A stretch of DNA of 55,048 nt. Origin: Parvibaculum sp. GTDB taxonomy: Bacteria > Pseudomonadota > Alphaproteobacteria > Parvibaculales > Parvibaculaceae. Of this stretch, positions 28 through 48,232 are shown one piece after another (the first letter of the stretch is position 1; every line of letters begins with the position of its first letter). Location of the stretch: positions 1-55,048 of the forward strand of contig JAUSLL010000037.1 in NCBI GenBank assembly GCA_030649335.1, read 5' to 3'. Under the pieces are notes generated by a model. That model worked only from the letters and a program-made list of their open reading frames with translations, did no database searches and had not been told where the DNA came from. The translations under genes were made by a program, and so were the position numbers.

Positions 28-534
28 ATGGCGCGTAAGGGATCCGGCCAAATCGTCAACCGTCAAGAGTTGCTGCACATTCTCGGATGCAGCGCGCCGA
101 CGATTGCCGACTATGAATTGCGTGGACTGCCTGTCGAAAAGAAGGGCGGCAAGGGCGTCGCCAATGAATACAACACGGCCCGCGTCATCGAGTGGCTTGT
201 GTCGCACAAGGCGGGCACGTTGCCCGGCGGTGGCAAGGCGCGAAACCATGAAGACGAAAAGGCGCGCAAGACGACGGCGGAGGCCGACCTAAAAGAAATC
301 GAATTGGCGGAAGCGCGGGCCGAAGTCGTGCCGATCGGGCATTCGGTTAAGGAATTTGCCAAGCGCGTCGCCGCGACTCGTTCGAAGATGTTGGCCCTGC
401 CGACGAAGTTGGCGCCGGTCTTGGTCGTGATGACCGACATCGAGGAGTCGCGCGCGGTGATCGAAGACATGATCCGCGAAGCACTTGACGAATTGGCCCG
501 CGATGACGGGGGCGAAGATGGCGCGGGTGAGTAA
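28..534 (+). CDS. Terminase small subunit, Nu1-like
   Basis: This is the DNA-recognition subunit of the packaging motor, which binds phage DNA and hands it to the large subunit. The N-terminus (NRQELLHILGCSAPTIADYE, about residues 11-30) reads as a winged helix-turn-helix followed by the G-L-P-V and GGKG wing seen in lambda gpNu1. Residues about 80-105 form a charged helix. At 168 residues it is close to gpNu1 (181). Its 3' end overlaps the start of the large terminase gene, so the two are translationally coupled. Family assignment is by motif pattern. An upstream reading frame appears to end with TGA at 19-21, so a further phage gene probably precedes it. Confidence 0.8.
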   Translation: MARKGSGQIVNRQELLHILGCSAPTIADYELRGLPVEKKGGKGVANEYNTARVIEWLVSHKAGTLPGGGKARNHEDEKARKTTAEADLKEIELAEARAEVVPIGHSVKEFAKRVAATRSKMLALPTKLAPVLVVMTDIEESRAVIEDMIREALDELARDDGGEDGAGE

Positions 535-3500
535 AGCGGCGCCCGACGAATGGGCCGAGTCCCGCGCGGCGTTTGATGATGTCTTGGCCGCGGCATATGC
601 CGATGCTATCCGCCCGCCGCCGCGTCTGACGGTTTCGCAATGGGCCGATAAAAACCGCGTGCTGTCGAGTGAGGCGTCGGCGGAGCCTGGCCGGTGGCGG
701 ACCGACCGCGCGGAATACCAGCGCGGCATCATGGACTCGGTCTGCGACCCGCTCGTTAAAACCGTGGTTTGGATGAGTTCGGCGCAGGTAGGGAAGGCGC
801 TGGCGCTCGACACTGAAATTCCGACTCCTAATGGCTGGACATCGATGGGTGAATTGCGCCCCGGCGATATGGTGTTTGATGATTCTGGGCAGCCGTGCGC
901 TGTGCTTCGCGCTACGGACGTTATGTGCGGTCGGGTCTGCTACGATGTTATTTTTTCAGATGGTCAAAAGATTGTGGCTGACGCAGATCATCAGTGGTTT
1001 GTGGAATCAAATACTCCGCTAATTCAAGGGACGCCGTGGCGCGGCGCCGGTAGAAAATTGGGCGTCATAACAACAGAGCAGATGGCGGCAACGTATAGAG
1101 ACGGAAAGCGGAATCGATATGCCATTCCAGTAAGTGCCCCACTTTCGTTGCCGGAACGGGAATTCACCTTAAAGCCATATACATTTGGGGTGTGGCTTGG
1201 TGATGGAAATTCGGCTAGTGCGCAAATAACTGTCGGCGCCGAAGACATCGAGAATATGCTGCAAAATCTTTTGGACGATGGCGGCTCACCATCTATTATC
1301 GCCGGTGAAAAAACATTAACGGTCAGATTGGACGCGGCATTTAGTGACCGAAAGGTGTGTCGGCGCGGTCATATTCTAAGCGAGTCCGGAAGGACTAAAT
1401 CGGGATATTGTGCGGAATGTGCCCGTCAGGCTTCACAGCATCATCAACGTGGGCACGCGATTGATAAAATTTGTGTGCGCTCAATTCCTGTATCTGAAAT
1501 TTTAAGAAACCTTGGCGTCATAAACAACAAACATATTCCGCCTGAATATCTCCGCGGGTCAATTGGCCAGCGTACCGCATTGCTGCAAGGGTTAATGGAT
1601 ACGGATGGTTATGTTGACGCGCGTGGCCGATGTGAATTTGTAACAACATCAAATGCGATTGCTTGTGGATTTGCCGACCTTCTCGCTGGGTTGGGGGTAA
1701 AATTCACAAGTTCAATTAAATCAGCGCGGTGCAAATACAAAGGCGCGATAGTGCAGGGAAAACCCGCACATAGATTTTCGTTTCTCGCTTATGCCGATAA
1801 GCCAATGTTCAGGCTGCGCCGAAAACTGGCCCGACAGAAGGCGCGCGCTGGATGCCGGACAACAGAGACGGAGCGACGTCGGATTGTTTCTGTGCGGCGA
1901 GTGGATTCTGTGCCTGTGCGCTGCATCGAGGTGGATTCCCGCTCGCATCTTTATTTGGCGGGGCGCGGCATGATCCCGACGCACAACACGGAAGTCCTTC
2001 TAAACGTCGGCGGGTATTACATCCACCATGACCCAGCGCCGATGCTTTTGGTGCAACCGACGATCGACATGGCGCAGGCGTTTTCGAAAGACCGCCTTGC
2101 GCCGATGGTGCGGGAGTGCCCCGCACTTGCGGAGCGCGTGCAGGATGGCCGCATCACGACGGGCACAGCCTCGACGATTTTGCACAAGGTATTTCCGGGC
2201 GGGCATATCACGATGGCGGGCGCGAATAGTCCGGCATCGCTGGCGTCGCGTCCGGTTCGAAACGCCTTGATGGATGAAGTGGATCGTTACCCCGTGTCGG
2301 CCGGCGCGGAAGGTGACCCCGTGTCGCTGGCGCGGAAGCGCACGACGACGTTCTGGAACCGAAAAATTTTACTTACGTCGACGCCGACGATCAAGGGTAG
2401 CAGCCGCATCGAGCGGGCCTATGAGGAATCGGACCAGCGCCGATATTGGGTGCCGTGCCCGAAGTGCGGCGCGGCTCAAATTTTGATTTGGGGGCAAGTG
2501 AAGTGGCCCGCGAATGATCCCGCGTCGGCGTATTACGAATGCGGGGAACACGATCCGGAAACGGGCGAGGTCTGCGGGCACCATTGGAGCGACGTCGAGC
2601 GATGGGCGGCAATCAAGACAGCGCCGCAACGCGGGGGAGGGTGGCGCGCATCGGCCCCGTTCGCGGGCATCGCCGGGTTTCACACTAACGAAATCATTTC
2701 GTCATGGGTCCGGCTGGGTGACATGGCTGTTAACTTTGTCGAGGCAAAGCGCGGCGGGCCGGAGTCGCTCAAGACTTTCGTGAATACCAGCTTGGGCGAA
2801 ACTTGGGAGGACCAAGGCGAACGCGTCGACGAGGCCGCGCTCGAAAGTCGCAAAGCGAATTGGGGCGATGAACTGCCGGCGGGCGTGGCTGTCGTCACGG
2901 CTGGCGTCGACTTCCAGGATGACCGTTTCGAAGTCGAGGTCACGGGCTGGGGCGCGAATGAGGAATCGTGGTCGCTCGATTACATCATCATTCGCGGCGA
3001 TCCTTCCGCGCCGGAAATGTGGAAGCGGCTCGACGAAGTGCTGCAGTCAAAATATAAGCACTCGTTTTTGAAACGTGAGTTTCCGATCCATGCCGCTTGC
3101 CTCGACACGGGCGGCAGCTATACGCAAAAAGTTTACGGGTTTTGCCGTGAGCGATGGTCGCGGTATATTTGGGCCATCAAGGGAATCGGCGGGCCGAGCA
3201 AGCGGATATGGCCGCCGCGTCATACTAAGACGAAGAACGGCGTGCCGCTTTTCGTCATCGGCGTCGATGCGGCGAAAGAAACGATTTACAATTATTTGCG
3301 GGTCACTGTGTCGGGCGCGGGGTATTGCTCATTTCCGAAATCGCGTGACGATGAATACTTCCGGCAACTCACGGCCGAAGAAACCGTCACGAAATACGTC
3401 AAAAGTTTTCCGCAGCGGGCTTGGCAATTGAAGTTGGGGCACAAGCGCAACGAGGCTTTGGATTGCCGCGTTTATGCTTACGCCGCACTGCAGGGGCTTA

Positions 3501-3718
3501 TCGCGCGCAACTTGAATCTCAATAAACGGTGTGCGTCTCTTGGCCTGCCTGATAGCGGTTCGGAACGTGGCGCGGCGGAAGTCGCACAGGATCCGCGCGC
3601 AAACCCCGATGAAGTCGTCGCGGCGGCAACGCCTGACGCGACGCAGGGCCCGCGCGTTGCTGCGGCTAAGCCAAAATTTCGACGTCGCCGGACGTCGCGT
3701 TCGTCAGTTATGGGTTGA
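518..3718 (+). CDS. Terminase large subunit (GpA family) precursor with intein
   Basis: ATPase-nuclease that cuts phage DNA and pumps it into the prohead. The precursor is 1066 residues; removing residues 94-490 (the intein) leaves 669, normal for lambda gpA-type terminases (641). The spliced protein restores Walker A (SSAQVGK joined to TEVLLN). Walker B is MDEVD in NALMDEVDRYP, and the C-terminal nuclease carries VDFQDDRFEVEV, CLDTGG and HKRNEALDCR. A Cys-rich stretch (CPKCG...CGEHD...CGHHW) is typical of GpA. I chose ATG 518 (purine-rich GGGGGCGAAG just upstream); ATG 503 and TTG 485 are in-frame alternatives. Without splicing the ATP-binding loop is broken, so splicing should be essential for phage production. 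Confidence 0.93.
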   Translation: MARVSKAAPDEWAESRAAFDDVLAAAYADAIRPPPRLTVSQWADKNRVLSSEASAEPGRWRTDRAEYQRGIMDSVCDPLVKTVVWMSSAQVGKALALDTEIPTPNGWTSMGELRPGDMVFDDSGQPCAVLRATDVMCGRVCYDVIFSDGQKIVADADHQWFVESNTPLIQGTPWRGAGRKLGVITTEQMAATYRDGKRNRYAIPVSAPLSLPEREFTLKPYTFGVWLGDGNSASAQITVGAEDIENMLQNLLDDGGSPSIIAGEKTLTVRLDAAFSDRKVCRRGHILSESGRTKSGYCAECARQASQHHQRGHAIDKICVRSIPVSEILRNLGVINNKHIPPEYLRGSIGQRTALLQGLMDTDGYVDARGRCEFVTTSNAIACGFADLLAGLGVKFTSSIKSARCKYKGAIVQGKPAHRFSFLAYADKPMFRLRRKLARQKARAGCRTTETERRRIVSVRRVDSVPVRCIEVDSRSHLYLAGRGMIPTHNTEVLLNVGGYYIHHDPAPMLLVQPTIDMAQAFSKDRLAPMVRECPALAERVQDGRITTGTASTILHKVFPGGHITMAGANSPASLASRPVRNALMDEVDRYPVSAGAEGDPVSLARKRTTTFWNRKILLTSTPTIKGSSRIERAYEESDQRRYWVPCPKCGAAQILIWGQVKWPANDPASAYYECGEHDPETGEVCGHHWSDVERWAAIKTAPQRGGGWRASAPFAGIAGFHTNEIISSWVRLGDMAVNFVEAKRGGPESLKTFVNTSLGETWEDQGERVDEAALESRKANWGDELPAGVAVVTAGVDFQDDRFEVEVTGWGANEESWSLDYIIIRGDPSAPEMWKRLDEVLQSKYKHSFLKREFPIHAACLDTGGSYTQKVYGFCRERWSRYIWAIKGIGGPSKRIWPPRHTKTKNGVPLFVIGVDAAKETIYNYLRVTVSGAGYCSFPKSRDDEYFRQLTAEETVTKYVKSFPQRAWQLKLGHKRNEALDCRVYAYAALQGLIARNLNLNKRCASLGLPDSGSERGAAEVAQDPRANPDEVVAAATPDATQGPRVAAAKPKFRRRRTSRSSVMG
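797..1987 (+). other. Class 3 intein with LAGLIDADG-type endonuclease domain
   Basis: This is an in-frame protein-splicing element of 397 residues inserted between Lys and Thr of the terminase Walker A motif. It begins with Ala (ALALDTEIPTPNGW), not Cys or Ser, and ends T-H-N before a +1 Thr. The noncontiguous W-C-T signature of class 3 inteins is complete: Trp67 in block B (DADHQW), Cys376 in block F (VRCIEVD) and Thr395 in block G (PTHN). Two dodecapeptide motifs, FGVWLGDGN (about 130-138) and LLQGLMDTDGYV (about 262-273), mark a homing endonuclease. A CxxxH...CxxC segment (188-208) lies between them. The element is visibly AT-richer than the flanking exteins, which suggests transfer. Confidence 0.92.
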
Positions 3719-3926: not shown

Positions 3927-4001
3927 TGCGGGGTAGCGCAGCGGTAGAGCGTCGGAGTCATAATCCGAAGGGCGATGGTTCGATCCCATCCCCCGCATCC
4001 A
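3927..4001 (+). tRNA. Prophage tRNA, anticodon CAT (Met or Ile2)
   Basis: This folds as a 72-nt cloverleaf plus encoded CCA (3999-4001). The acceptor stem TGCGGGG pairs with CCCCGCA. The anticodon stem is TCGGA/TCCGA with loop GTCATAA (anticodon 3959-3961). The T arm is GATGG-TTCGATC-CCATC. The D stem GCGC/GAGC has one G-A mismatch, and position 32 is G rather than the usual pyrimidine. The anticodon could read AUG, or AUA if the cytidine is lysidine-modified. It sits inside the prophage between terL and gpW. Confidence 0.85.
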
Positions 4002-23185: not shown

Positions 23186-23658
23186 ATGCGCTTGAATTTC
23201 TGAATCTCACAATCCGCCCCGCGCTCGCAATGATGGGGCCGAAGTATCAGGGCCGCCCCGTCGAGATTTTGTTGCTGGCGATTGCGCTGCAAGAAAGCGC
23301 GCTGCGTCACCGCAAGCAAGTCGGCGGTCCGGCGCGCGGCTTTTGGCAATTTGAGCGCGGTGGCGTGGCGGGGGTATCTCGGCACGGCGCATCGAGCGCA
23401 AAGTTTAAAGACGCGTGCACGGCGTTTCTATATCCGCCGACCGTCGACGATGTTTATGGCGTCATCGCGGATAATGATGCGCTGGCCTGCGTCGTCGCGC
23501 GTCTGTTGCTTTACACGCACGCCAAGGCGATTCCGGAAACGGGGCCGGAAGGGTGGGCTTATTACGAATGGCTTTGGCGTCCGGGCAAGCCGCACCCTGA
23601 GACGTGGGCAAAGAATTGGGCAGCTGCGGTTGATGCCGTCTCGACTGTGGGGGCTTGA
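23182..23658 (+). CDS. Probable endolysin, lysozyme/transglycosylase-like
   Basis: This 158-residue protein has QESALRHRKQVGGPARGFWQ (about 37-56), a Glu followed by a Gly-Pro-A-R-G-F-W-Q-F-E block resembling the active region of lytic transglycosylases and lysozymes. Glu38 is the candidate acid. It has no signal peptide, so export would need the holin encoded next. It overlaps the chaperone stop by four bases. The enzyme class is inferred from this motif and from its place beside a holin, so moderate confidence only. Confidence 0.6.
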   Translation: MNALEFLNLTIRPALAMMGPKYQGRPVEILLLAIALQESALRHRKQVGGPARGFWQFERGGVAGVSRHGASSAKFKDACTAFLYPPTVDDVYGVIADNDALACVVARLLLYTHAKAIPETGPEGWAYYEWLWRPGKPHPETWAKNWAAAVDAVSTVGA

Positions 23659-23660
23659 AA

Positions 23661-24185
23661 ATGGACATCGGTAAACTTGTCGGCACTGTCGCGCCGTGGA
23701 TCGGAACGGCCTTGGGCGGTCCGCTGGGCGGCATGGCGGTCGGTGCTTTGGCTGACGCATTGGGGCTTTCCGACAAGACCGAAGCGGCCATCAAAAATGC
23801 AATCTCTGGCGCGACGCCGGAACAAATGCTTGCGCTGAAAAAGGCGGACCAAGACTTCGCACTTCAAATGCAGGAACTTGGCTTTAAGAATGTCGCCGAC
23901 CTTGAAAAGATCGCAGCCGAAGATCGCAACAGTGCCCGCAATCGTGAGATTCAGACCGGCGACCATTTCACGCCGCGCCTGTTGGCCATTGTCGTCACGT
24001 TCGGGTTTTTCTTGGTGCTTGGGTATTTGATACGCTACGGCATGCCCGCTGGCGAAGGGCGCGACGCGCTTCTGATTATGCTCGGCTCACTCGGAACGGC
24101 TTGGACTGGAATCGTCGCGTATTACTTCGGGTCTTCGGCCGGCAGCGCACAAAAGAGTGCGCAGATCGCCGCGCAAAAATCTTGA
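23661..24185 (+). CDS. Three-TM holin (GTA holin type)
   Basis: This 174-residue protein has an amphipathic Gly-rich N-terminal segment (VGTVAPWIGTALGGPLGGMA), a helical middle with TPEQMLALKKADQDFALQMQ and EKIAAEDRNSARNREI, and two clear membrane spans (about 106-126 and 137-157). This layout and the D-R-x-S-A-R block match the 3TM holins shared by phages and gene transfer agents of alphaproteobacteria. It would time release of the endolysin. ATG 23661 follows GGGGG; the end is convergent with the integrase gene, 9 bases away. Confidence 0.82.
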   Translation: MDIGKLVGTVAPWIGTALGGPLGGMAVGALADALGLSDKTEAAIKNAISGATPEQMLALKKADQDFALQMQELGFKNVADLEKIAAEDRNSARNREIQTGDHFTPRLLAIVVTFGFFLVLGYLIRYGMPAGEGRDALLIMLGSLGTAWTGIVAYYFGSSAGSAQKSAQIAAQKS

Positions 24186-24194
24186 CGTGACGCG

Positions 24195-25466
24195 CTATTC
24201 CGCGGCATCGGCATCGATCGGTCCAAGCCATCCGATAAGTGCGTCGGCGGTGTGATTTTGAGCCGCGCGCACGGTGTCGTCGAAAAGGTCTGCATAAATT
24301 GCGGTCACGGCTTCGTCGCTGTGGTGGAGCAGATCGGCGACTGTCTCGACGCCGAAGCCTTGCGCCTGGCCCGTCACCTTGGCCGCCGATGCAAAACTGT
24401 GGCGCAGGTCGTGGATCCTGACCTTGCCAAGCCCGGCGACCTTGAGAAGCGCAGCCCACTGGCGGCTTTCGTCTCTTAACGGCTTGCCCTTGACCAAGCC
24501 GGGGAAAATAAACGGGTTCGACTTGTTGCGGCGGTCGTACAGTTTCCGCAGCACAGCGACGGCATGGGGTGATAAAAGAACGTTTTTCGCGCCGGTCTTT
24601 GAATCGGGCAGGCGGTATAACCCTGCATCGATGTCAACCCATGCCCATCGGCCGTGCATCCATTCCCGCTTGCGACATCCGGTGACAAGCAAAAGCATGA
24701 TGAGCCCGGCGAAGCGCATGCGCGCCGCGCCTCGATCGACATAGGCGTCGGTGCCCGGCAACAGGTTCCGCTCGCCTTCAATATATGTGGGTTCGTCGCC
24801 GCCGGCGGCTTCGAATATCCGGAGCGCCATACCCAATTTAGCGAGCGCGACTGGCGGCAAGTAGCGATGCACGCCGCGCGATTCTTTCGACTTGCCACTT
24901 TCCTTCACGGGGTTTGTGTTGCGGGCCCGCATCGGCGGCTTGAAGCCTTCCGCCAATTCGAACGCTTTGTGCAGGCATGCCCGGACGCGGTTGCGGGTCG
25001 CGGGCTTGTCTTTCAGCGCGGAAAGCACTTTTTCGATGTCGGCCGGCGTCACGGCCCGCACGGGCAAGTTACCGATTTTTGGCAGTATGTGGACCCGCCA
25101 ATAGATTTCGTCGAGGGCGCGGCTCGTTTCCTTTTTGGTGAGCGCGTGGCCTTTCATATAGCGGTCTTGCAGGTCGCGCATGGTGCCGTCGCCGCCGCCC
25201 GCTGTGCTTCCAGGCGTGCCGCCCGCCGCGACATCGACGATCCATGCCCGTGCTATGTCGCGGGCTTGCTCCGCTGAAATCTGGCCATGCACGCCGATCT
25301 TGGGACGATGCTGGCGCCCGTTCCGGTCGCGGTATTGCAGGCCATAGGTTTTGCGGCCCGTGGCGAGGGTGCGGACGTGGAAGCCGGTGAGGTCGGAGTC
25401 CCAGACGAAGCCGGGGGCGGTGATGGCGTCCACGGCGCGTTTTGTGAGGCGGGCGCGGGTGGTCAT
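24195..25466 (-). CDS. int: Prophage tyrosine integrase
   Basis: This 423-residue site-specific recombinase has an N-terminal arm-binding domain (DLTGFHVRTLATGRKTYGLQ), a core-binding helical domain (about 95-200) and a catalytic domain with Arg in LVTGCRKREW, His-x-x-Arg in IHDLRHSFAS, His in LLHHSDEAVTAIY and the nucleophile Tyr in TAIYADL. It reads toward the lysis genes, and lies next to the right attachment site in a tRNA-Pro end, the usual arrangement. Its ATG overlaps the stop of the upstream gene (ATGA), so both are on one transcript. It appears intact. Confidence 0.93.
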   Translation of the reverse strand: MTTRARLTKRAVDAITAPGFVWDSDLTGFHVRTLATGRKTYGLQYRDRNGRQHRPKIGVHGQISAEQARDIARAWIVDVAAGGTPGSTAGGGDGTMRDLQDRYMKGHALTKKETSRALDEIYWRVHILPKIGNLPVRAVTPADIEKVLSALKDKPATRNRVRACLHKAFELAEGFKPPMRARNTNPVKESGKSKESRGVHRYLPPVALAKLGMALRIFEAAGGDEPTYIEGERNLLPGTDAYVDRGAARMRFAGLIMLLLVTGCRKREWMHGRWAWVDIDAGLYRLPDSKTGAKNVLLSPHAVAVLRKLYDRRNKSNPFIFPGLVKGKPLRDESRQWAALLKVAGLGKVRIHDLRHSFASAAKVTGQAQGFGVETVADLLHHSDEAVTAIYADLFDDTVRAAQNHTADALIGWLGPIDADAAE

Positions 25467-26014
25467 GGGGTTCGCGGCGTCATCACGGCATCAAGCGCCG
25501 CTGTGATATACGGCCGTTCCGTCGCCACTGAAACGGTCATCGAGGCTGGCCCAAAGCCCTTTTTGCGGGCCGCGACATAGGCGAGGGTGAGGCGTTCGGC
25601 GAAGTCGTCTTGCGGGTCGTTTTCGGGCTTCACAATGGCGGCATAAACCTTGTCCGGCACGCCAGCGATGGTGTCGGCTTTAGCGACGCCATCAAGGTCC
25701 AAATCGTCGGGCTCGACTTCCTCGACGGGCCCGGCCTCGACGCGGGCGCGGAGTTCGTCGGCGGTGATGCCGAAGTGTTCCGCGCATTCCTCGACGAGTC
25801 GCCCATAGGCGTCAATGTGGCTGGGGGTGCTTCCGTCAGACGCGCCCGACATGTCGTCGCCGGTCATGGCGCTCAGCGCAGCGGATACCAATGCGCCAAG
25901 GTCGGCCCCTTCCGCCTGAATCGTTACTGGCGCCGCGCTTTCGCCTGCGGCATTTTCGACCTTGGCCGCCGCGTTCGGGAGCGACAAGCGGCCTTTTTGG
26001 GATTTCTTCGACAT
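25463..26014 (-). CDS. Unknown acidic protein cotranscribed with integrase
   Basis: This 183-residue protein begins with a basic stretch (MSKKSQKGRLSLPNAAAK) and continues acidic, with EECAEHFGITADELRARVEA and EEVEPDDLDLDGVAKADTIA, then a C-terminal part DDFAERLTLAYVAARKKGFG. I recognise no family. It has no membrane segment. It is the first gene inside the right prophage end and overlaps the integrase start by four bases. A role as directionality factor or integrase partner is only a guess from position. Confidence 0.6.
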   Translation of the reverse strand: MSKKSQKGRLSLPNAAAKVENAAGESAAPVTIQAEGADLGALVSAALSAMTGDDMSGASDGSTPSHIDAYGRLVEECAEHFGITADELRARVEAGPVEEVEPDDLDLDGVAKADTIAGVPDKVYAAIVKPENDPQDDFAERLTLAYVAARKKGFGPASMTVSVATERPYITAALDAVMTPRTP

Positions 26015-26037
26015 GGTTTTCGTTCCTTTGGGTTTTG

Positions 26038-26175
26038 ATATTGGAAGCGTATTGGAAGCAAGTCAACGGGATTAAGCGGTATTTGTCGGGAAGGTGCGGG
26101 ATAGCCGTTCCGGCCCAAGCGATTGAAACCGCTTAGACTTTTCGTTTTTGGGATATGACGGTATTTCTCGGTATT
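26038..26175. repeat. Short repeats between integrase operon and attachment site
   Basis: CGGTATT occurs three times (26077, 26159, 26169), TATTGGAAGC twice near 26039-26059, and an 8-bp inverted repeat TAAGCGGT/ACCGCTTA spans 26073-26080 and 26128-26135. Such clusters beside a core site are typical of integrase arm-type or accessory sites; promoters of the integrase operon must also lie here. Confidence 0.5.
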
Positions 26176-26187
26176 AACCGAAAATCA

Positions 26188-26234
26188 GTCTGGGGGACAA
26201 GGGGTCGTCGGTTCGAATCCGGCCGCTCCGACCA
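26188..26234 (+). other. attR: 3' part of tRNA-Pro(GGG)
   Basis: The sequence runs from the anticodon loop (CTGGGGG) and stem ACAAG through variable loop, T arm GTCGG-TTCGAAT-CCGGC, acceptor strand CGCTCCG and ACCA. The 5' half does not continue to the left, where phage DNA begins, so this is a truncated tRNA left at the right prophage junction. The complete tRNA-Pro should lie at the left junction outside the window. Confidence 0.85.
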
Positions 26235-26243
26235 TCTAAAACG

Positions 26244-26289
26244 GGGCCAGCGTGTCATCACCTTTGCGGTGGGCACGTTGGCCCTTTCT
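26244..26289 (+). terminator. Terminator of the former tRNA-Pro transcript
   Basis: An 11-bp stem GGGCCAGCGTG/CACGTTGGCCC (one G-T pair) with an inner CACC/GGTG pairing is followed by TTTCTT. It lies 10 bases after the tRNA-Pro CCA and is most simply the original host terminator of that tRNA. Confidence 0.75.
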
Positions 26290-26348
26290 TCAACGGGGAG
26301 CTTGGGGCAAACTCGGGCTTCAGGCGTCTTATTCGGAGTTCAGGACCA

Positions 26349-26426
26349 ATGGCCACTATCCCGATCATCATTCTGCTCGTCGCGATCCTCGTCCTGAACA
26401 AGACGCAGACCGGCTCTTTCTTCTGA
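26349..26426 (+). CDS. Possible 25-residue membrane peptide
   Basis: An open frame from ATG 26349 encodes MATIPIIILLVAILVLNKTQ plus GSFF: one hydrophobic span with a short polar tail. GGAG and AGGA lie just upstream. Small single-span peptides like this are common but hard to prove. It occupies the gap between attR and the DUF2842 gene. Confidence 0.4.
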   Translation: MATIPIIILLVAILVLNKTQTGSFF

Positions 26427-26454
26427 GCAGATTGGCTTCTGAGCAGATTGGCTT
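26423..26454. repeat. Two perfect 16-bp tandem copies
   Basis: CTGAGCAGATTGGCTT occurs twice head to tail; the first copy includes the stop codon of the 25-residue frame. Confidence 0.9.
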
Positions 26455-26482
26455 TTGACCCGTCCTGTCGTGCTCGCCCGCG

Positions 26483-26716
26483 TCACTCGGCGTCGGGCTT
26501 GAGCATCCAGTTGAATACATAGCGAAACGGCAGCGCCCAGATCGTGCCAGCGATCAGGTAGTAGGCGAATTGCACCGCGCCATGCTCCGGCAGATGGCCG
26601 CTGACGGCGATCGTCATGATCAGCAATGCGTAGAAAAACAGAAAAACCAGCAGGAATATTGTGCCGAGGAGTTTGCGGACGCTGAGGCTCAGTTTGGGCA
26701 TGGCGATCTCTGTCAT
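26483..26716 (-). CDS. DUF2842 small membrane protein
   Basis: This 77-residue protein carries two membrane spans (about 17-38 and 48-66) and the pattern SVRKLLGTIFLLVFLFFYAL ... YYLIAGTIWALPF of DUF2842, a family almost restricted to alphaproteobacteria. Function is unknown. Met6 (MPKLSL) is an alternative start. It starts 9 bases after the last of six tandem paralogous genes on the same strand and is probably the end of that operon. Confidence 0.8.
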   Translation of the reverse strand: MTEIAMPKLSLSVRKLLGTIFLLVFLFFYALLIMTIAVSGHLPEHGAVQFAYYLIAGTIWALPFRYVFNWMLKPDAE

Positions 26717-26725
26717 TATCTGGAT

Positions 26726-27217
26726 TTACTGTTGTGCCATCACGGGCGGGACCTTGAAGTGGTCGAACCAGGCGATGCGCACCTGATAGCCTTCATCGGT
26801 ATAGCCGACCAGCACTGTGCCGCCACCTATGCCGATGGGGTTCTTGCCAAGGCCGGGAGCCTGAAAGACCGCTCCCATGCCGGCCAGTTTTTCTTCCTGA
26901 TGTGCCAGTGCATAGGCTTCGATCACCTTGCGGCTTTCGCGCATTAAATCTGTGCTCAGGCTTTGAAGGCGATGGCCGGGGGCGACCAGAACGCGGACGA
27001 AGGCAAAATCTTGCCTCACCTGTTGGAGTCGCTGCACGATCATCGTTGTCAGGGCGATTACCTTGCCGTCCTCATAGGCGACAACAGAGAGTTCCTTGGC
27101 GCGTTCGTCGGGTGACTGACCCTTCGGCAGGGCGCTAAGTTCAGTCCAGAGCGCAATGGCGTCCTGCTCAAGCTTGGGGTCGTTTTGTCGCCATGCGTTG
27201 GCGTATGTAATCGTCAT
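26726..27217 (-). CDS. GNAT-like tandem paralogue, copy 1
   Basis: This 163-residue copy is the most diverged with copy 2. It keeps the array signature: AWRQNDPKLEQDA at the start, AYEDGKVIALTTMIV, DFAFVRVLVAPGHR, RKVIEAYALAHQEEKLAG, GLGKNPIG and the C-terminal WFDHFKVP. The order of predicted strands and helices fits an acetyltransferase (GNAT) fold, but the acetyl-CoA loop normally R-x-x-G-x-G/A reads RLQSLS here, without glycine. ATG 27217 with AGGG upstream was chosen over a longer start at 27256, which would overlap copy 2. Catalytic activity is doubtful. Confidence 0.8.
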   Translation of the reverse strand: MTITYANAWRQNDPKLEQDAIALWTELSALPKGQSPDERAKELSVVAYEDGKVIALTTMIVQRLQQVRQDFAFVRVLVAPGHRLQSLSTDLMRESRKVIEAYALAHQEEKLAGMGAVFQAPGLGKNPIGIGGGTVLVGYTDEGYQVRIAWFDHFKVPPVMAQQ

Positions 27218-27245
27218 TAGCCCTGATTTCTGTTTCGCAGCTCGC

Positions 27246-27740
27246 TCAGCTTGCATCCGGCAGGCGCGACTTCACGCGGAAATGGTCGAACCAGCAAGCC
27301 CGGACCTGTTCATTCCTATCTGTATAACCCATCAGAACCAGACCGCCACCGCGCGAAATGGCACGCTTGCCGATGCCGGGTGCCTGAAGCACGGCGGCGA
27401 TGCCCGCGATGCTTTCGTTCAGATGCGCCAGTGCATAGGCCTCAACGACTTCGCGCGTCCTTTGCGTGAGGGCGATGCTGATGTGTTCGAGCCGCCGGTC
27501 GCTTGCAACGACCTCGCGGATGAAACCGAAATTTTCCTGCAACAGATCGAAGAATTTCACTTCAATGGTCGAGATGCCGATGAGCACGTTTTCGTCATAG
27601 GCAAGCACGGCCAGCTGCTTCACGCGTTTATCGACATCGGCGTCACCGGGTAAAACTTTATGGGAGGTCCAGAAGGCCCGCGCTTCTGCTTCGAGTTGCG
27701 GATCATCCTTCCGCCATGCGTCAACAAATGTAATCGCCAT
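27246..27740 (-). CDS. GNAT-like tandem paralogue, copy 2
   Basis: This 164-residue copy has ITFVDAWRKDDPQLEAEARA at the start, QLAVLAYDENVLIGISTIEV, FGFIREVVASDRR, REVVEAYALAHLNESIAGIA, GIGKRAI and WFDHFRV. The loop that would hold acetyl-CoA pyrophosphate is RLEHIS, again without glycine. AAGG precedes the ATG, which overlaps the stop of copy 3 by one base (TGATG), so copies 3 and 2 are coupled. Function unknown. Confidence 0.8.
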   Translation of the reverse strand: MAITFVDAWRKDDPQLEAEARAFWTSHKVLPGDADVDKRVKQLAVLAYDENVLIGISTIEVKFFDLLQENFGFIREVVASDRRLEHISIALTQRTREVVEAYALAHLNESIAGIAAVLQAPGIGKRAISRGGGLVLMGYTDRNEQVRACWFDHFRVKSRLPDAS

Positions 27741-28267
27741 CAGCCTTGCATCCTGATTTGCGCCTGTTCAAATGTTTCGCTGAGATTGGCGGGCACGCGG
27801 AAATGATCGAACCAGCTCACGCGCACCTGTTCTCCGTAGGGCGTGTAGCCGATCAGCACCAAGCCCGCGCCGTTGGGATATGGGTTGGGTCGCGCGCCTA
27901 GCAGAGGTGACGACACGACCGCCGCCAGTCCTGCAATATTTTCCTCCGGATGCGCGATGGCGTGTTTTTCGATCAGGTCATGCACAGGCTTGCCCATGAT
28001 GATGGCCAGATGCTGTTCGCGATGATCTTTAGCGACCATGCCGCGCAAGAAGGCAAACTTCTGCCGCAGCCGCGTAAACTCCCTCACATGAATGGTTGTG
28101 ATGGCGACCAGTTCGCCGCCCTCATAGGCCATCACCGCCAGTTGCTTAATCCGTTCAGCGACGTTTTCATCGGGCATAGCATCTTCCCGTATCCAGAATG
28201 CGCGCGCATCGGCTTCGAGCTTCGGGTCATTTTTACGCCAGGCTTCTACAAATGCGATGTCGCTCAT
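27740..28267 (-). CDS. GNAT-like tandem paralogue, copy 3
   Basis: This 175-residue copy starts MSDIAFVEAWRKNDPKLEAD at ATG 28267. It keeps AYEGGELVAITTIHVREFTR, KFAFLRGMVAKDHR, AIAHPEENIAGLAAVV, a longer loop LLGARPNPYPNGAG before GLVLIGYTPYGEQVRVSWFD and HFRVP, and has an extra 14-residue tail. The putative cofactor loop is REQHLA. A gap of 106 bases separates it from copy 4; I see no promoter or gene in that gap. Confidence 0.8.
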   Translation of the reverse strand: MSDIAFVEAWRKNDPKLEADARAFWIREDAMPDENVAERIKQLAVMAYEGGELVAITTIHVREFTRLRQKFAFLRGMVAKDHREQHLAIIMGKPVHDLIEKHAIAHPEENIAGLAAVVSSPLLGARPNPYPNGAGLVLIGYTPYGEQVRVSWFDHFRVPANLSETFEQAQIRMQG

Positions 28268-28373
28268 CAAACACCTGTTGTTGTGGAATCACGCAATCAG
28301 AATAACGGTCTGTGAAATTGGTGAAACAAGGCAAAAGCCTGTCTGTTCAATTTGGCGCAGGTTCGCTTGCGTA

Positions 28374-28862
28374 TCAGCCCTCCAAGTTTCCGGGAACGCG
28401 GAAATGTTCAAACCAGGCGGCACGCACCTGTTCGTTGTCCGGTGTGTAGCCGACGAGAACCATGCCGGTGCTTCGGCCAACCGGACGTTTGCCAACGCCG
28501 GGCACCTGCATAACGGCGGCCATGCCTGCGAGATTTTCATCTGGATTATTGAGCGCCCAGTTCTCGATCATCTTGTGCGTCTCCACCATGATCTCGCGTC
28601 CGACGGCATTCATGCGAAATGCCGGTGTCACAAACCCGCGAATGAACGCAAACTTTTGACGCACATGCTCAAACGGACGCACATTGAGTGTTGTCAGAGC
28701 CGCAAGCTGACCATCGCTATAGGCGACGACTGCAAGTTGCTTCACGCGTATCTCTATTTCTGCGAGGTCAGGCAATATGCCCGGTTCAGACCAAATGACA
28801 CGCGCATCAGCCTCAAGCCGCGGATCGTCTTTGCGCCATGCGTTAACATACTCAATGCTCAT
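28374..28862 (-). CDS. GNAT-like tandem paralogue, copy 4
   Basis: This 162-residue copy starts MSIEYVNAWRKDDPRLEADA at ATG 28862, overlapping the stop of copy 5 by four bases. It has VKQLAVVAYSDGQLAALTTL, QKFAFIRGFVTPAFR, KMIENWALNNPDENLAGMAA, GVGKRPVG, MVLVGYTPDNEQVRAAWFEH and FRVPG. The cofactor loop reads RMNAVG: the only glycine near this loop in the array. It is clearly homologous over its full length to the other five copies. Confidence 0.8.
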   Translation of the reverse strand: MSIEYVNAWRKDDPRLEADARVIWSEPGILPDLAEIEIRVKQLAVVAYSDGQLAALTTLNVRPFEHVRQKFAFIRGFVTPAFRMNAVGREIMVETHKMIENWALNNPDENLAGMAAVMQVPGVGKRPVGRSTGMVLVGYTPDNEQVRAAWFEHFRVPGNLEG

Positions 28863-29383
28863 GCGCCGGTATTCCATTTTGCAAATTCTGAAATCGGAGC
28901 GAGATTCCCCGGTATCCTGAAATGTTCAAACCAGCTGGCGCGCACCTGTTCATTGAATTCTGTGTAGCCGATTAGCGCCATGCGACTGACGCTGCCGATG
29001 GGTTTCTTGCCGATGCCTTTGGCCTGATAGACGGAGGCCATGCCTGCAATCATTTCGTCGGGATGGGCGATGGCGTGGGCTTCGATCACCTTGCGGGTTT
29101 CGCCGCTCAATGCGCGGGCGATTGAATGAAGCCGGTAATCGGGTGCGATAGCTTCGCGCAAAAAGGCAAACTTTTGCCGCAGCAGTTCGAAGGGGCGCAC
29201 ATTCAGCGTCGAGAGCCCGACGAGCTTGTCACCGTCATAGGCGAGCACGGCAATCTGTTTGGCGCGTTCTTCCACCGGTGTATCGGCTTTGAGCAAGCCG
29301 TGCTCGGTCCAGAAGGCAATGGCATCAGCCGTGTGCTTGGGCTCATTTTTACGCCATGCTTCAACAAAAGTGATGTTCGTCAT
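28859..29383 (-). CDS. GNAT-like tandem paralogue, copy 5
   Basis: This 174-residue copy is closest to copy 6: both share ADAIAFWTEH, LAYDGDKL, LRQKFAFLREA and PDYRLH. It runs ITFVEAWRKNEPKHTADAIA, VLAYDGDKLVGLSTLNVRPF, FAFLREAIAPDYR, RKVIEAHAIAHPDEMIAGMA, GIGKKPIG, MALIGYTEFNEQVRASWFEH and FRIPG, then an extra tail. The loop RLHSIA lacks glycine. AGG lies seven bases before ATG. It is separated from copy 6 by 80 bases without a visible gene. Confidence 0.8.
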   Translation of the reverse strand: MTNITFVEAWRKNEPKHTADAIAFWTEHGLLKADTPVEERAKQIAVLAYDGDKLVGLSTLNVRPFELLRQKFAFLREAIAPDYRLHSIARALSGETRKVIEAHAIAHPDEMIAGMASVYQAKGIGKKPIGSVSRMALIGYTEFNEQVRASWFEHFRIPGNLAPISEFAKWNTGA

Positions 29384-29463
29384 CAGTCGGCCTATTGGTC
29401 AAAGAAATGAATAAACATGCCAAGGCGCTGCGGGTTCGCTTTGGCTTGTAATTTGTGGGGAGG

Positions 29464-29952
29464 TTAATCCTCCATGGTCCCGGGGATGCGGAAATGTTCA
29501 AACCAGCCGACGCGCACCTGCTCATTTTGTGGCGTGAAGCCGATCAGTGCCATGCGGCTGAGTTTGCCGATCGGGTTCCGGCCCAGACCCTTGTGTTGAT
29601 AAACTGCGGCCATGCCGGCGATCTTTTCTTCGGGATGGGCAATGGCATAGGCCTCGATCACTTTTCGTGCTTCGCCGCTTAGTTCGCGCGCCAGCGTGTG
29701 GAGCCGGTAGTCGGGCGAAACGGCCTCACGCAGAAAGGCGAATTTTTGCCGCAACAGGTCGAAGTGGCGCACATTCAGCGTTGCGAGCGCAATGAGCTTG
29801 TCGCCGTCATAGGCCAGAACCGCGAGCTGTTGGGCGCGTTCCTCCGGCGATGTTTCGGCATTGAGTATTTTATGCTCAGTCCAGAAGGCAATAGCATCGG
29901 CTGCGTGCTTAGGGTCATTTTTGCGCCAGGCGTCAACAAATGTGATCGTCAT
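29464..29952 (-). CDS. GNAT-like tandem paralogue, copy 6
   Basis: This 162-residue protein is the first gene of the six-copy array and nearest the divergent promoter region shared with ctaA. The predicted order beta1 (ITFVDAW), two helices, beta2-beta3 (LAVLAYDGDKLIALATLNVR), beta4 (FAFLREAVSPDYR), helix (ARELSGEARKVIEAYAIAHP), beta5 (GMAAVYQ) and a final MALIGFTPQNEQVRVGWFEH is that of GNAT enzymes. The cofactor loop is RLHTLA rather than a glycine-rich turn. No Shine-Dalgarno is visible before ATG. Family name and function unknown to me. Confidence 0.82.
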   Translation of the reverse strand: MTITFVDAWRKNDPKHAADAIAFWTEHKILNAETSPEERAQQLAVLAYDGDKLIALATLNVRHFDLLRQKFAFLREAVSPDYRLHTLARELSGEARKVIEAYAIAHPEEKIAGMAAVYQHKGLGRNPIGKLSRMALIGFTPQNEQVRVGWFEHFRIPGTMED

Positions 29953-30052
29953 CGGAGGAGGTGCTTTCTACTTTTTGCCGTTACGCCGGCAGGCGCGGCT
30001 GTGGCAAATTACCCCGCTGTGAAGATGGAGTTGTTCGGGTATCACATTGAGC

Positions 30053-31081
30053 ATGAATATAGCAAACTCTCACGCCGCGCGCCGACAGATTGCTCTCTGG
30101 CTGTTTGCGGTTTCAGCACTGGTCTTCTTGATGGTTGTTGTCGGCGGGCTGACGCGCCTGACCGAAAGCGGCTTGTCGATCACCGAATGGAAACCCGTCA
30201 CCGGCACCTTGCCGCCAATGGGTGATGCCGCCTGGGCCGATGCTTTCGCGCGCTATCAGCAGATTCCGCAATATGAGCTCGTCAACAAAGGTATGACGCT
30301 CGATGAGTTCAAAAACATCTTCTGGTGGGAGTGGAGCCATCGTTTTCTCGGTCGCTTCATCGGCTTTGCGTTTCTCGTGCCGTTCCTCTGGTTTCTCGCC
30401 ACACGCCGCATCGAGCGTGCGCTGGCGCCGCGTCTTGTTGTCATGTTCCTGCTCGGTGGGGCGCAAGGGGTGCTCGGCTGGTGGATGGTGAAGAGCGGCC
30501 TCACGCATCGCGTTGACGTGAGCCAATATCGCCTCGCCGCCCATCTCGGCCTCGCCACGCTCATCTATGCCTATATGACATGGATCGCCCTCGCACTCTG
30601 GCGCCCCGCGCCGGTCATCCATGTTGATGTGGGTCTACGTCGCGCTGCCATGGCGCTGGCGGTGTTTGTGTTTATCCAGATGATGCTCGGGGCCTTTGTT
30701 GCAGGCATCAAGGCGGGTCACATCTACAACACATGGCCGCTCATCGACGGGGCCTTCATTCCCGACGGGCTGATGGCGCATCAGGTGTGGTGGCGTAATC
30801 TTTTCGAGAACATGCTGACCACACAGTTCAATCACCGCATGGCGGCCTATCTCATCACCGGACTTGTGGTGTGGCACTGGTTTGCCGCGCGTGCCTCCGG
30901 CAGCCCCATGGCGCGTCAGAGCGCAGGCTGGCTTGTCGTGGCGGTTGCCGCGCAAGTGGTGCTCGGCATCTGGGCTTTGCTCATGGTCGTGCCGATCCCG
31001 CTCGGTGCGGCGCATCAGGCCGGTGCGCTCGTGGTGTTCACGGTCGCGCTCGTTCACGCACGGCGGCTCAATCCGGCTTAG
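30053..31081 (+). CDS. ctaA: Haem A synthase
   Basis: This inner-membrane enzyme converts haem O to haem A for cytochrome c oxidase. It has 342 residues and eight spans, with the paired four-helix halves of COX15: VVVGGLTRLTESGLSITEWK after the first span, WWEWSHRFLGRFIGFAF with a haem-ligand His, LAAHLGLA, then the second half with TTQFNHRMAAYLI and GAAHQAGALVVF. I chose ATG 30053 (MNIANSH); TTG 30047 is in frame. It is divergent from the six-copy array, the 100-base gap holding both promoters. Confidence 0.93.
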   Translation: MNIANSHAARRQIALWLFAVSALVFLMVVVGGLTRLTESGLSITEWKPVTGTLPPMGDAAWADAFARYQQIPQYELVNKGMTLDEFKNIFWWEWSHRFLGRFIGFAFLVPFLWFLATRRIERALAPRLVVMFLLGGAQGVLGWWMVKSGLTHRVDVSQYRLAAHLGLATLIYAYMTWIALALWRPAPVIHVDVGLRRAAMALAVFVFIQMMLGAFVAGIKAGHIYNTWPLIDGAFIPDGLMAHQVWWRNLFENMLTTQFNHRMAAYLITGLVVWHWFAARASGSPMARQSAGWLVVAVAAQVVLGIWALLMVVPIPLGAAHQAGALVVFTVALVHARRLNPA

Positions 31082-31092
31082 TGTCTTCGTCT

Positions 31093-31167
31093 TTGCGAGG
31101 AGCGAAGCGACGAAGCAATCCAGTGCCGCAAAGGAAGACTGGATTGCTTCGCTACGCTCGCAATGAC
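31093..31167. repeat. Large palindromic repeat between convergent genes
   Basis: Arms 31093-31124 and 31138-31167 are near-perfect inverted copies around GCGAAGCAATCCAGT-type sequence, a mobile palindrome frequent in alphaproteobacterial intergenic regions. It lies between the ends of ctaA and metY and could act as a bidirectional terminator. Confidence 0.8.
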
Positions 31168-31169
31168 GA

Positions 31170-32441
31170 TTACCCCAGCGCCTTGTCCAGCGCCTTGGTA
31201 ATATCCGCCACATCCTCAATCCCGATCGACAGGCGCACCACATCGGGTCCAGCGCCCGCTGCAATCTTTTGCTCGTCGGTCAGCTGCCGGTGTGTTGTTG
31301 ACGCGGGATGAATGACTAGGCTGCGTGTATCGCCGAGATTGGCGAGATGGCTCAGCAGCTCAATCGTATTGACAAGTTTCTTGCCTGCCTCATAGCCGCC
31401 TTTGACGCCGAAGGTCAGCAGCGCGCCCGCACCCTTGGGTGCGTATTTCTGTTGCAGTTTGTGGGACGGATCATCGGCAAGGCCTGAGTAAGACACCCAG
31501 CTCACTTTCGGGTGGTTCTTCAGGAAGGTCGCCACCGTCAGTGCATTGTCGCAATGGCGCTGCATGCGCAGCGGCAAAGTCTCGATGCCGGTGATGATCA
31601 TGAAGGCGTTGAAGGGTGAGATGGCGGGGCCGAGGTCGCGCAGGCCCAGCACACGGCAGGCGATGGCGAAGGAGATTGCGCCGAATGTCTCGAAAATCTT
31701 CAGGCCGTTGTAGGAGCCCGTCGGCTCTGTCAGCGTCGGAAACTTGCCGCCTTTTGACCAATCGAATTTGCCTGCGTCCACAATCACGCCGCCCATCGAA
31801 TTGCCGTGGCCGCCGAGAAACTTCGTCGCCGAATGGATGACAATATCCGCGCCATGTTCAATCGGACGGATCAGGTAGGGCGAGGCAAGTGTGTTGTCCA
31901 CGATCAGCGGCACGCCCGCTTCGTGCGCAATAGCGGCAATGGCGGCAATGTCCATGACGCGGCCGCTGGGGTTCGCCATGCTTTCAATGAAGACCGCTTT
32001 GGTCTTCGGTCCGATGGCTTTCTTGATGGTCGCCGGATCCGTCGCATCGGCCCAATCGACATGCCAGTCGAATTTTTTGAACGAATGCGAAAACTGCGTG
32101 ATCGAACCGCCGTAAAGCTGCGTCGCTGCAACAAAATGATCGCCGGGGCTCATCAGTGTGTGAAAGGCAATCATCTGTGCCGCATGGCCGGAGGCAACAG
32201 CAAGAGCGGCCACGCCACCTTCGAGTGCTGCCACGCGTTCTTCTAGCACAGCGGTCGTCGGGTTGGTGATGCGCGTATAGATATTGCCGAAGGCTTCGAG
32301 GCCGAAGAGCGAGGCTGCATGGTCCGCATCATCGAATACAAATGATGTGGTCTGATAGATCGGCGTCGTGCGCGCGCCTGTTGTCGGGTCGGGTTTGGCA
32401 CCGGCATGAACGGCGAGCGTATTAAAATTATAGTCAGACAT
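31170..32441 (-). CDS. metY: O-acetylhomoserine sulfhydrylase
   Basis: This 423-residue PLP enzyme makes homocysteine from O-acetylhomoserine and sulfide. The family signature is clear: FNTLAVHAGAKPDPTTGART at the start, TTPIYQTTSFVF, YTRITNPT, ALEGG..ALAVASG, the DNTLASPYL block and the PLP lysine in IHSATKFLGGHG, then VNTIELLSHLANLGDTRSLV and HPASTTH. Length about 425 favours MetY over MetZ/MetB types. It follows the CoA-binding gene by 7 bases in the same operon. No SAM riboswitch is visible upstream. Confidence 0.92.
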   Translation of the reverse strand: MSDYNFNTLAVHAGAKPDPTTGARTTPIYQTTSFVFDDADHAASLFGLEAFGNIYTRITNPTTAVLEERVAALEGGVAALAVASGHAAQMIAFHTLMSPGDHFVAATQLYGGSITQFSHSFKKFDWHVDWADATDPATIKKAIGPKTKAVFIESMANPSGRVMDIAAIAAIAHEAGVPLIVDNTLASPYLIRPIEHGADIVIHSATKFLGGHGNSMGGVIVDAGKFDWSKGGKFPTLTEPTGSYNGLKIFETFGAISFAIACRVLGLRDLGPAISPFNAFMIITGIETLPLRMQRHCDNALTVATFLKNHPKVSWVSYSGLADDPSHKLQQKYAPKGAGALLTFGVKGGYEAGKKLVNTIELLSHLANLGDTRSLVIHPASTTHRQLTDEQKIAAGAGPDVVRLSIGIEDVADITKALDKALG

Positions 32442-46963: not shown

Positions 46964-48232
46964 ATGAGCGAAGAATTTCATCGCATTAAGCGTTTGCCCC
47001 CGTATGTTTTCGAGAGCGTCAACAAGCTCAAGGCGAAAGCACGCGCCGAGGGCCGTGACATCATCGATTTCGGCATGGGCAATCCGGATATGCCGACGCC
47101 GCCGCACATCGTCGAAAAGATGATCGAGGCCGTGCGCGATCCCAAAACCCATCGCTATTCCTCCTCGCGCGGCATCCCCGGTCTGCGTAAGGCGCAGGCT
47201 GCCTATTACAAGCGCCGCTTCGGTGTGACGCTCAATCCCGAGACGGAAGTCATCGCCACGCTTGGTTCCAAGGAAGGTCTCGCCAATCTTGCGCAAGCCA
47301 TCACCGCGCCGGGTGATGTCATTTTGTGTCCGAACCCGAGCTACCCGATCCACGCCTTCGGCTTCATCATTTCCGGTGCGGTCATCCGCTCTGTGCCGTT
47401 TGAGAGCCATGAAGGCTTCATGGACATGCTGGAACGCGGCGTGCGTCATTCGGTGCCAAAGCCCGTGGCTCTCGTTGTCAGCTATCCGTCAAACCCGACC
47501 GCACAGGTTGCGACGCTGGATTTCTACCGCGAGATCATCGCCTTCGCCGCCAAGCACGACATCTGGGTCATCTCCGATCTCGCCTATTCGGAAATCTATT
47601 TCGACGGCAACCCGCCGCCCTCCATCCTGCAGGTGCCGGGTGCCAAAGAGCGCGCGGTTGAATTCACGTCGCTGTCTAAGACCTACAACATGCCCGGTTG
47701 GCGCATGGGTTTTGCCGTGGGCAATGAGCGTCTCATCAATGCGCTTGGCCGTGTGAAATCCTATCTCGACTATGGTGCCTTCACGCCCATTCAGGTCGCA
47801 GCAACAGCCGCGCTCAACGGCCCGCAGGATTGCGTCGAAGAAATCCGCCAGACCTACAAGAGCCGCCGCGACGTGCTTGTGGACAGCATGGCGCGTTCGG
47901 GTTGGGACATTCCGAGCCCGCCAGCTTCCATGTTTGCTTGGTCGCCGATCCCGGAAAAATTCCGCCACCTCGGCTCGCTCGGCTTCTCGACATTGCTCAT
48001 GGAGCAGGCCGACGTCGCCGTCGCGCCGGGCATCGGCTTTGGTGAATATGGCGACGGCCATGTCCGCATCGGCCTTGTCGAAAACGAACACCGCATCCGT
48101 CAGGCCGCGCGTGGCGTCAAACGAATGATGTCGAACGCCGACCAGATCCTTGCCGAATACGAAGAACGTGTCGGTATCAAAGGCAACAATGTTGTCGCGC
48201 ATCCCACTACGACGAGAGCAGGCCGGACGTGA
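46964..48232 (+). CDS. Class I aminotransferase, AlaC/DapL-like
   Basis: This 422-residue PLP enzyme has DIIDFGMGNPDMPTPPHIVE, HRYSSSRGIPGLRKAQAAYY, YPSNPTAQVA, the PLP lysine in SLSKTYNMPGWRMGF, and the substrate Arg in DGHVRIGLVENEHRIR. The set points to the AlaC/YfdZ branch (glutamate-pyruvate transaminase), often annotated LL-diaminopimelate aminotransferase. It overlaps hom by four bases, as in many alphaproteobacteria, linking it to aspartate-family amino acids. The 46830-46963 gap holds no gene. Confidence 0.9.
   Translation: MSEEFHRIKRLPPYVFESVNKLKAKARAEGRDIIDFGMGNPDMPTPPHIVEKMIEAVRDPKTHRYSSSRGIPGLRKAQAAYYKRRFGVTLNPETEVIATLGSKEGLANLAQAITAPGDVILCPNPSYPIHAFGFIISGAVIRSVPFESHEGFMDMLERGVRHSVPKPVALVVSYPSNPTAQVATLDFYREIIAFAAKHDIWVISDLAYSEIYFDGNPPPSILQVPGAKERAVEFTSLSKTYNMPGWRMGFAVGNERLINALGRVKSYLDYGAFTPIQVAATAALNGPQDCVEEIRQTYKSRRDVLVDSMARSGWDIPSPPASMFAWSPIPEKFRHLGSLGFSTLLMEQADVAVAPGIGFGEYGDGHVRIGLVENEHRIRQAARGVKRMMSNADQILAEYEERVGIKGNNVVAHPTTTRAGRT

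Follow-up and report, generated by a model that had tools for sequence, protein, structure and literature searches.

The split terminase gene and its prophage

The window, the whole stretch of 55,048 nucleotides of Parvibaculum DNA analysed here, begins at the first base of its contig, so that the left end of the prophage it carries is missing. Phage genes extend to about 22.5 kb and encode terminase subunits, portal, head protease, capsid E, tail sheath, tape measure, baseplate and fibre. An integrase gene follows on the reverse strand (24195-25466), and beyond it lie bacterial metabolic genes, including one for homoserine dehydrogenase (48229-49539; best match listed, 96%). Among the relatives listed for this enzyme, those bearing an organism name are mostly Parvibaculum, which on the strength of one gene makes the host Parvibaculum-like. 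A first-pass annotation had described the element as a Mu/lambda mosaic. For the lambda half of that description, the Nu1-like small subunit, gpA, the lambda-family portal and capsid E fit head genes of lambda type; for the Mu half, what was found is that the tail genes include sheath and baseplate proteins. Where attachment repeats were sought near the integrase (23600-31200), the larger repeat families were those of six tandem, diverged paralogous reading frames on the reverse strand (26726-29952; 162-176 residues each, 45-52% identical to the first). The four of these tested have no Pfam match, and two of the six have weak NCBIfam matches far below the cut-offs. A tRNA-Met gene (CAT; 3927-4001, forward strand) lies inside the prophage just 3' of the terminase gene, and positions 3928-4001 are 86% identical in the viral contig L006.

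The small terminase subunit (28..534, forward strand; Nu1-like by Pfam) is followed by the large-subunit gene on the same strand, whose reading frame, uninterrupted by stops, encodes a precursor of 1066 residues from the ATG at position 518. Within it, positions 797 to 1987 form an insert of 1191 nt, in frame and stop-free, which encodes 397 residues (precursor residues 94-490) and parts the Walker A Lys93 from Thr491. The N-extein (518..796, 93 residues) ends in SSAQVGK, and the C-extein (1988..3718, 576 residues) opens with Thr491, the +1 residue, which completes the Walker A GKT; the two sum to 669 residues, as the first-pass annotation had it. Pfam places GpA_ATPase (PF05876, 8.5e-77) in two stretches, one on each side of the insert, and GpA_nuclease (PF20454, 1.8e-89) 3' of it, both domains of the lambda gpA-type large terminase.

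The insert begins ALALDT and ends MIPTHN. Its N-terminal splicing (HINT) part covers roughly residues 1-110 (797..1126, domain edge approximate) and holds Ala1, Cys48 (938-940), His65 (989-991) and Trp67 (995-997), while the C-terminal splicing part (1859..1987, edge likewise approximate) holds the predicted nucleophile Cys376 (1922-1924), Tyr386 (1952-1954) and Thr395-His396-Asn397 (1979-1987). Two LAGLIDADG motifs retain their acidic residues, YTFGVWLGDGN at residues 128-138 (Asp136; 1178..1210) and ALLQGLMDTDG at 261-271 (Asp268 and Asp270; 1577..1609), and LAGLIDADG_3 scores above its Pfam cut-off inside the insert. The initial reading had been of an intein placed exactly in Walker A, running from Ala to THN before Thr, with Trp67, Cys376, Thr395 and endonuclease motifs, and each of these features is where it was said to be.

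Class 3 features and the predicted splicing route

What identifies the insert as a class 3 intein? Position 1 offers no nucleophile (Ala1), the Trp-Cys-Thr triplet falls in blocks B, F and G when the insert is aligned with solved and phage class 3 inteins, the C-terminal Asn397 is followed by one of Ser, Thr or Cys at +1 (Thr491), and the predicted model has the HINT fold of solved class 3 inteins. By sequence, the closest solved proteins are mycobacterial class 3 DnaB inteins, which match both ends of the insert; since its splice blocks match theirs (6rix, E 1.5e-33; 6bs8, E 4.5e-33), the residues are not a chance pattern. In the AlphaFold2 model (pLDDT 94.5), the splicing domain superposes on the M. 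smegmatis class 3 DnaB intein over 125 residues at 1.1 Å, with 56% identity, and the closest whole-length fold is that of PI-SceI. The intein is thus real and intact; both the completeness originally claimed for it and the alignment with known inteins proposed as a check are borne out.

His65, Cys376 and Thr395 are kept in 133 of 133 aligned inteins. In the pattern-cut alignments, conservation of Thr-His-Asn follows from the method itself: the pattern by which inteins were extracted from the best 120 relatives demanded those letters, dropping nine of the 120 (P0019, P0034, P0050, P0059, P0060, P0070, P0073, P0081 and P0100) as well as L092. A profile cut that does not require the splice letters yielded 145 of 151 loci (L192, L205, L237, L239, L248 and L257 were dropped). 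Among 78 rows cut in this way, comprising 76 distinct loci from the scan with a Vibrio intein plus L193 and L194, Trp67, Cys376, Thr395 and Asn397 are present in all 78 and His396 in 76.

Excerpts of the M. chimaera DnaB1 study (PMC7664689) describe a Cys-His-Thr triad in which His65 joins the Cys of block F and the Thr of block G. The window intein has the equivalent His65, Cys376 and Thr395, and the class 3 splicing route is predicted for it on that ground. From known class 3 chemistry, Cys376 would attack the Lys93-Ala1 bond and the acyl chain would then move to Thr491; Asn397 would cyclise and the exteins would ligate, giving a terminase of 669 residues whose GKT loop is intact. With the Lys and the Thr of Walker A separated by the insert, the ATPase of the unspliced terminase would be expected to be inactive until the intein is removed, so that packaging would depend on splicing, as the first-pass annotation had proposed. 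That 797-1987 is a class 3 intein that splices, by the predicted Cys376-His65-Thr395 chemistry, is very probable.

The mycobacterial DnaB P-loop inteins (DnaBi1, 6bs8/6own; M. chimaera, 6rix) share with it Ala1, His65/Trp67, the block F Cys, the Thr-His-Asn end and Cys48, besides the superposable splicing parts. DnaBi1 is likewise inserted in a P-loop before a hydroxyl residue, according to the excerpted description of its site (PMC6195587). It is, however, a mini-intein with no endonuclease and resides in a helicase, whereas the window intein carries a LAGLIDADG endonuclease with a Cys/His/Cys/Cys module and resides in a terminase.

For terminases, the excerpted survey by Kelley 2016 (PMC5050341) lists the mycobacteriophage inteins TerL1-a to TerL1-e, TerL6-f and Pham3880-g, in hosts named as terminase_1, terminase_6 and one terminase-like protein. 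It places TerL1-a after the Walker A Lys and before the Thr, and discusses TerL1-c, -d and -e as class 3; splicing was found in all five terminase inteins tested, and cutting of intein-free alleles in TerL1-b and -c. Inteins in large terminases were therefore already known, as the first-pass annotation held, both from these examples and from phage records at the Lys/Thr junction. The window intein shares with them a large-terminase host, which is of the gpA type rather than terminase_1 or terminase_6; membership of the TerL1-a group was considered and rejected on this difference, the TerL1-a host being terminase_1. What is new here is the gpA-type host family and, above all, an added, predicted zinc module, class 3 inteins and terminase inteins being known as such. 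Within the portions of the open-access literature on terminase inteins that were covered, no intein was found described in a gpA-type terminase.

Distribution and probable transfer of inteins at the gpA site

When 7998 candidates were scored against precursor residues 80-500, 6078 proteins reached E <= 0.001, and the best 120 of these were examined. A gpA-type junction, judged by sequence pattern, is present in 96 of the 112 rows cut (111 of the best 120 relatives plus L006). With these and the named Acidovorax phage ACF1, the rarity that had been hinted at is not supported. Matches to the intein occur in 693 of 50,697 phage records, all below 60% identity, and in 391 of them the match covers at least 80% of the intein. 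Eight of the 693 were examined and six of the eight were run against Pfam, which assigns the ACF1 host to the gpA type, as in the window, and the hosts of Easy2Say (a Mycobacterium phage) and Vibrio phage 489E54-1 to the TerL_ATPase type (PF03354); RcTiptonus, CN1A and Nebkiss gave endonuclease models only. The inteins of Easy2Say, Vibrio phage 489E54-1 and ACF1 have the same Walker A Lys/Thr junction, triplet and LAGLIDADG endonuclease as the window's, to which they are 33-35% identical, and all lack the zinc module. The ACF1 intein (L108:460-1512) has Cys at position 1, where the window's has Ala, together with the full Trp/Cys/Thr triplet, and so bears marks of both class 1 and class 3. Pro replaces Ala at position 1 in eight of 45 gpA rows, including that of the same-genus genome G008 (L092).

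Most of the viral gpA loci examined have no insert. Of the 80 loci kept, out of 287 relatives found by the C-extein alone, 77 read as empty by sequence pattern, one is occupied and two are unreadable. The extein is matched in 21 of 98 related genomes and the intein in three: the window's own, one in the gpA terminase of G008 and a weak one in a 348-residue frame elsewhere (G058). The intein lies inside the extein match in two of the 21. In a sample of the class (289 genomes), 41 match the combined intein and extein alignment, and among the matches listed both sets of columns are spanned at the window's locus only. Two genomes of the sample, G134 (contig C5) and G324 (contig C1), match in the intein columns alone, in frames of 902 and 817 residues, which indicates related inteins in other proteins there. 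A scan of genome contigs with the C-extein returned one relative, Azospirillum sp. TSH64, whose frame has no intein match.

How often has the gpA site been invaded? In a tree of 133 inteins, built with the module columns excluded and including 45 gpA-site rows, one group holds 44 of the 45 (SH-aLRT 98), and only L193, whose gpA label is a phmmer match at E <= 1e-3, falls outside. When ACF1 and Clavibacter phage CN1A are added, 44 of 46 gpA-site rows remain grouped (SH-aLRT 97); the long branches of ACF1 and L193 attach elsewhere, their place being unsure. This suggests one invasion by the window's lineage and perhaps further ones by others. Two stronger statements lack support: a sole invasion, given the position of ACF1 and L193, and frequent jumps between terminase families, the host label requiring two changes (133-intein tree) or three (with ACF1 and CN1A).

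Evidence on transfer comes from two comparisons. Within the genus, G008 has the intein and G005 does not, in gpA genes that are closely similar (352 of 375 and 1326 of 1500 flanking nucleotides identical), and the 366-residue G008 intein sits exactly between the Ala and Thr codons. The second is with the viral contig L006/L191, whose intein is 93% identical to the window's in protein. Against L006, its closest relative, the intein has a synonymous divergence of 0.31, compared with 0.81 for the N-extein and 1.21 for the C-extein, the last near saturation, which puts intein dS at about 0.26 to 0.38 of extein dS. Fourfold sites agree in 153 of 194 intein codons and 110 of 198 extein codons (p 1.1e-6), and the difference between intein and left extein alone is weak (p 0.03). 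The simplest reading of the lower dS is that the intein entered after the exteins had split, in one or both lineages, and the sequences suggest that it was likely transferred between phages recently. The low dS and the occupied/empty pair both point to homing, and homing of the intein into intein-free gpA genes at the present time is accordingly favoured as the probable state of affairs.

Phage genomes recombine widely, and the low dS might instead reflect ordinary phage recombination or local synonymous constraint, with no part played by the endonuclease. A co-conversion tract, looked for at the right junction against L006, was not seen, as this explanation would have it. Against it, third-position identity drops at the right junction itself, from 28 of 30 in intein codons 361-390 to six of 15 in the first 15 extein codons, and the G008/G005 pair is exact. 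Elsewhere in the same comparison, the intein bins range from 18/30 to 28/30 and the left-flank bins, nearest first, read 11/15, 7/15, 12/15 and 12/15. Ordinary recombination or constraint is a possibility to be reckoned with, though an unlikely one. Less probable still is an intein that splices, has a dead endonuclease and is inherited passively with the terminase gene. Intein and C-extein distances do correlate over 81 gpA proteins (Mantel rho 0.65, with 0 of 999 permutations as high), indicating much shared descent, and only two of the 21 extein matches in the related genomes enclose an intein. Yet the acids of both LAGLIDADG motifs are kept, the endonuclease dN/dS against L006 is 0.083, as for a gene under selection, and the intein dS is far below that of the exteins. 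Finally, a normal domain of this terminase family or a dead, non-splicing insertion is very improbable, as G005 (beside G008) and the 77 empty viral gpA loci read through at the codon, the splice residues are intact and conserved, and Walker A is interrupted between its Lys and its Thr.

A predicted zinc module and possible conditional splicing

Between the two LAGLIDADG motifs lies a module of about residues 185-218 (1349..1450), with the arrangement Cys188-x2-Gly-His192-x12-Cys205-x2-Cys208 and, in the model, a helix at 206-218. This inserted module may be a treble-clef-like zinc finger. It has no Pfam match; judged by its residues and the model, the Cys/His/Cys/Cys set is predicted to bind zinc, and the module may stabilise the endonuclease or give it further DNA contacts. 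In alignments it is absent from seven of seven named-phage inteins and from the same-genus G008 intein.

Could the module be a mark of the gpA group? Its exact motif is found in 82 of 96 gpA-junction rows and one of 16 others among the top relatives of the window, a specificity biased by the selection of these top hits for their similarity to the window. A viral scan ranked on the Vibrio intein, which is module-free, gives four of nine gpA loci against five of 71 others among the best 80 of 558 relatives (Fisher p 0.008, uncorrected for kinship). On the trees, the module changes at least 15 times (133 inteins) or at least 14 times (with ACF1 and CN1A), many forks being poorly supported, and only one of the close sisters P0027 and P0092 has it. 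The Vibrio-ranked scan and the frequent changes lead us to reject the module as a mark of the group.

A parallel is found in yeast. The excerpted account of the HO/WHO proteins and VDE/PI-SceI (PMC7282813) shows them to be intein-like LAGLIDADG proteins, as the window intein is, and HO/WHO have a zinc finger, as is predicted for the window intein. HO/WHO, however, carry the finger at the C-terminus, lack exteins and motif G and do not splice, whereas in the window intein the module lies inside the endonuclease and all splice residues are kept.

The first-pass annotation had raised conditional splicing, for which DnaBi1 is the model. Excerpts of work on the M. smegmatis protein report that H2O2 produces a Cys48-Cys118 disulfide, that splicing is lost with every Cys48 change tested and that the authors term Cys48 non-conserved (PMC6195587); part of a further study describes zinc bound by Cys118, Val119 backbone atoms and Tyr128, with splicing blocked (PMC7360933). 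In the window intein, the aligned counterparts of these switch residues, Cys48, Cys376 and Tyr386, are all present. All 45 gpA-site rows counted have Cys48, as do 75 of 88 others. At position 386, which in DnaBi1 is the Tyr of the inhibiting zinc site, 31 of the gpA-site rows have Tyr and 14 have Phe (42 and 46, respectively, of the other 88); the Phe rows count against a zinc response throughout the group. With all three residues matched and Cys48 invariant at the gpA site, a redox response is a reasonable prediction for the intein family, and by analogy a zinc response is predicted for the window intein. Oxidation, through a Cys48-Cys376 disulfide, or excess zinc would then pause splicing and hence packaging. 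Alternatively, conservation of Cys48 may reflect a requirement for splicing itself.

The most far-reaching reading joins two claims: that the class 3 inteins at the gpA site constitute a distinct allele family, with a zinc finger built into the LAGLIDADG endonuclease of an intein that splices (until now, such a fusion has been described only in yeast HO/WHO proteins, which do not splice), and that Cys48-Cys376 makes the terminase a redox- and zinc-gated motor. As a whole it is doubtful. If true, a temperate phage would hold its DNA packaging until the host cytoplasm was reducing again, and Cys48 would be a regulatory residue of ancient origin that class 3 inteins have in common.

The intein extends class 3 to a terminase family for which none is described in the portions of the open-access literature covered, and G008/G005, an exact pair of occupied and empty alleles within a single genus, provides material for a homing test. 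Many class 3 inteins may share Cys48, one half of the redox switch of DnaBi1, so that conditional splicing can be tested beyond the mycobacteria.
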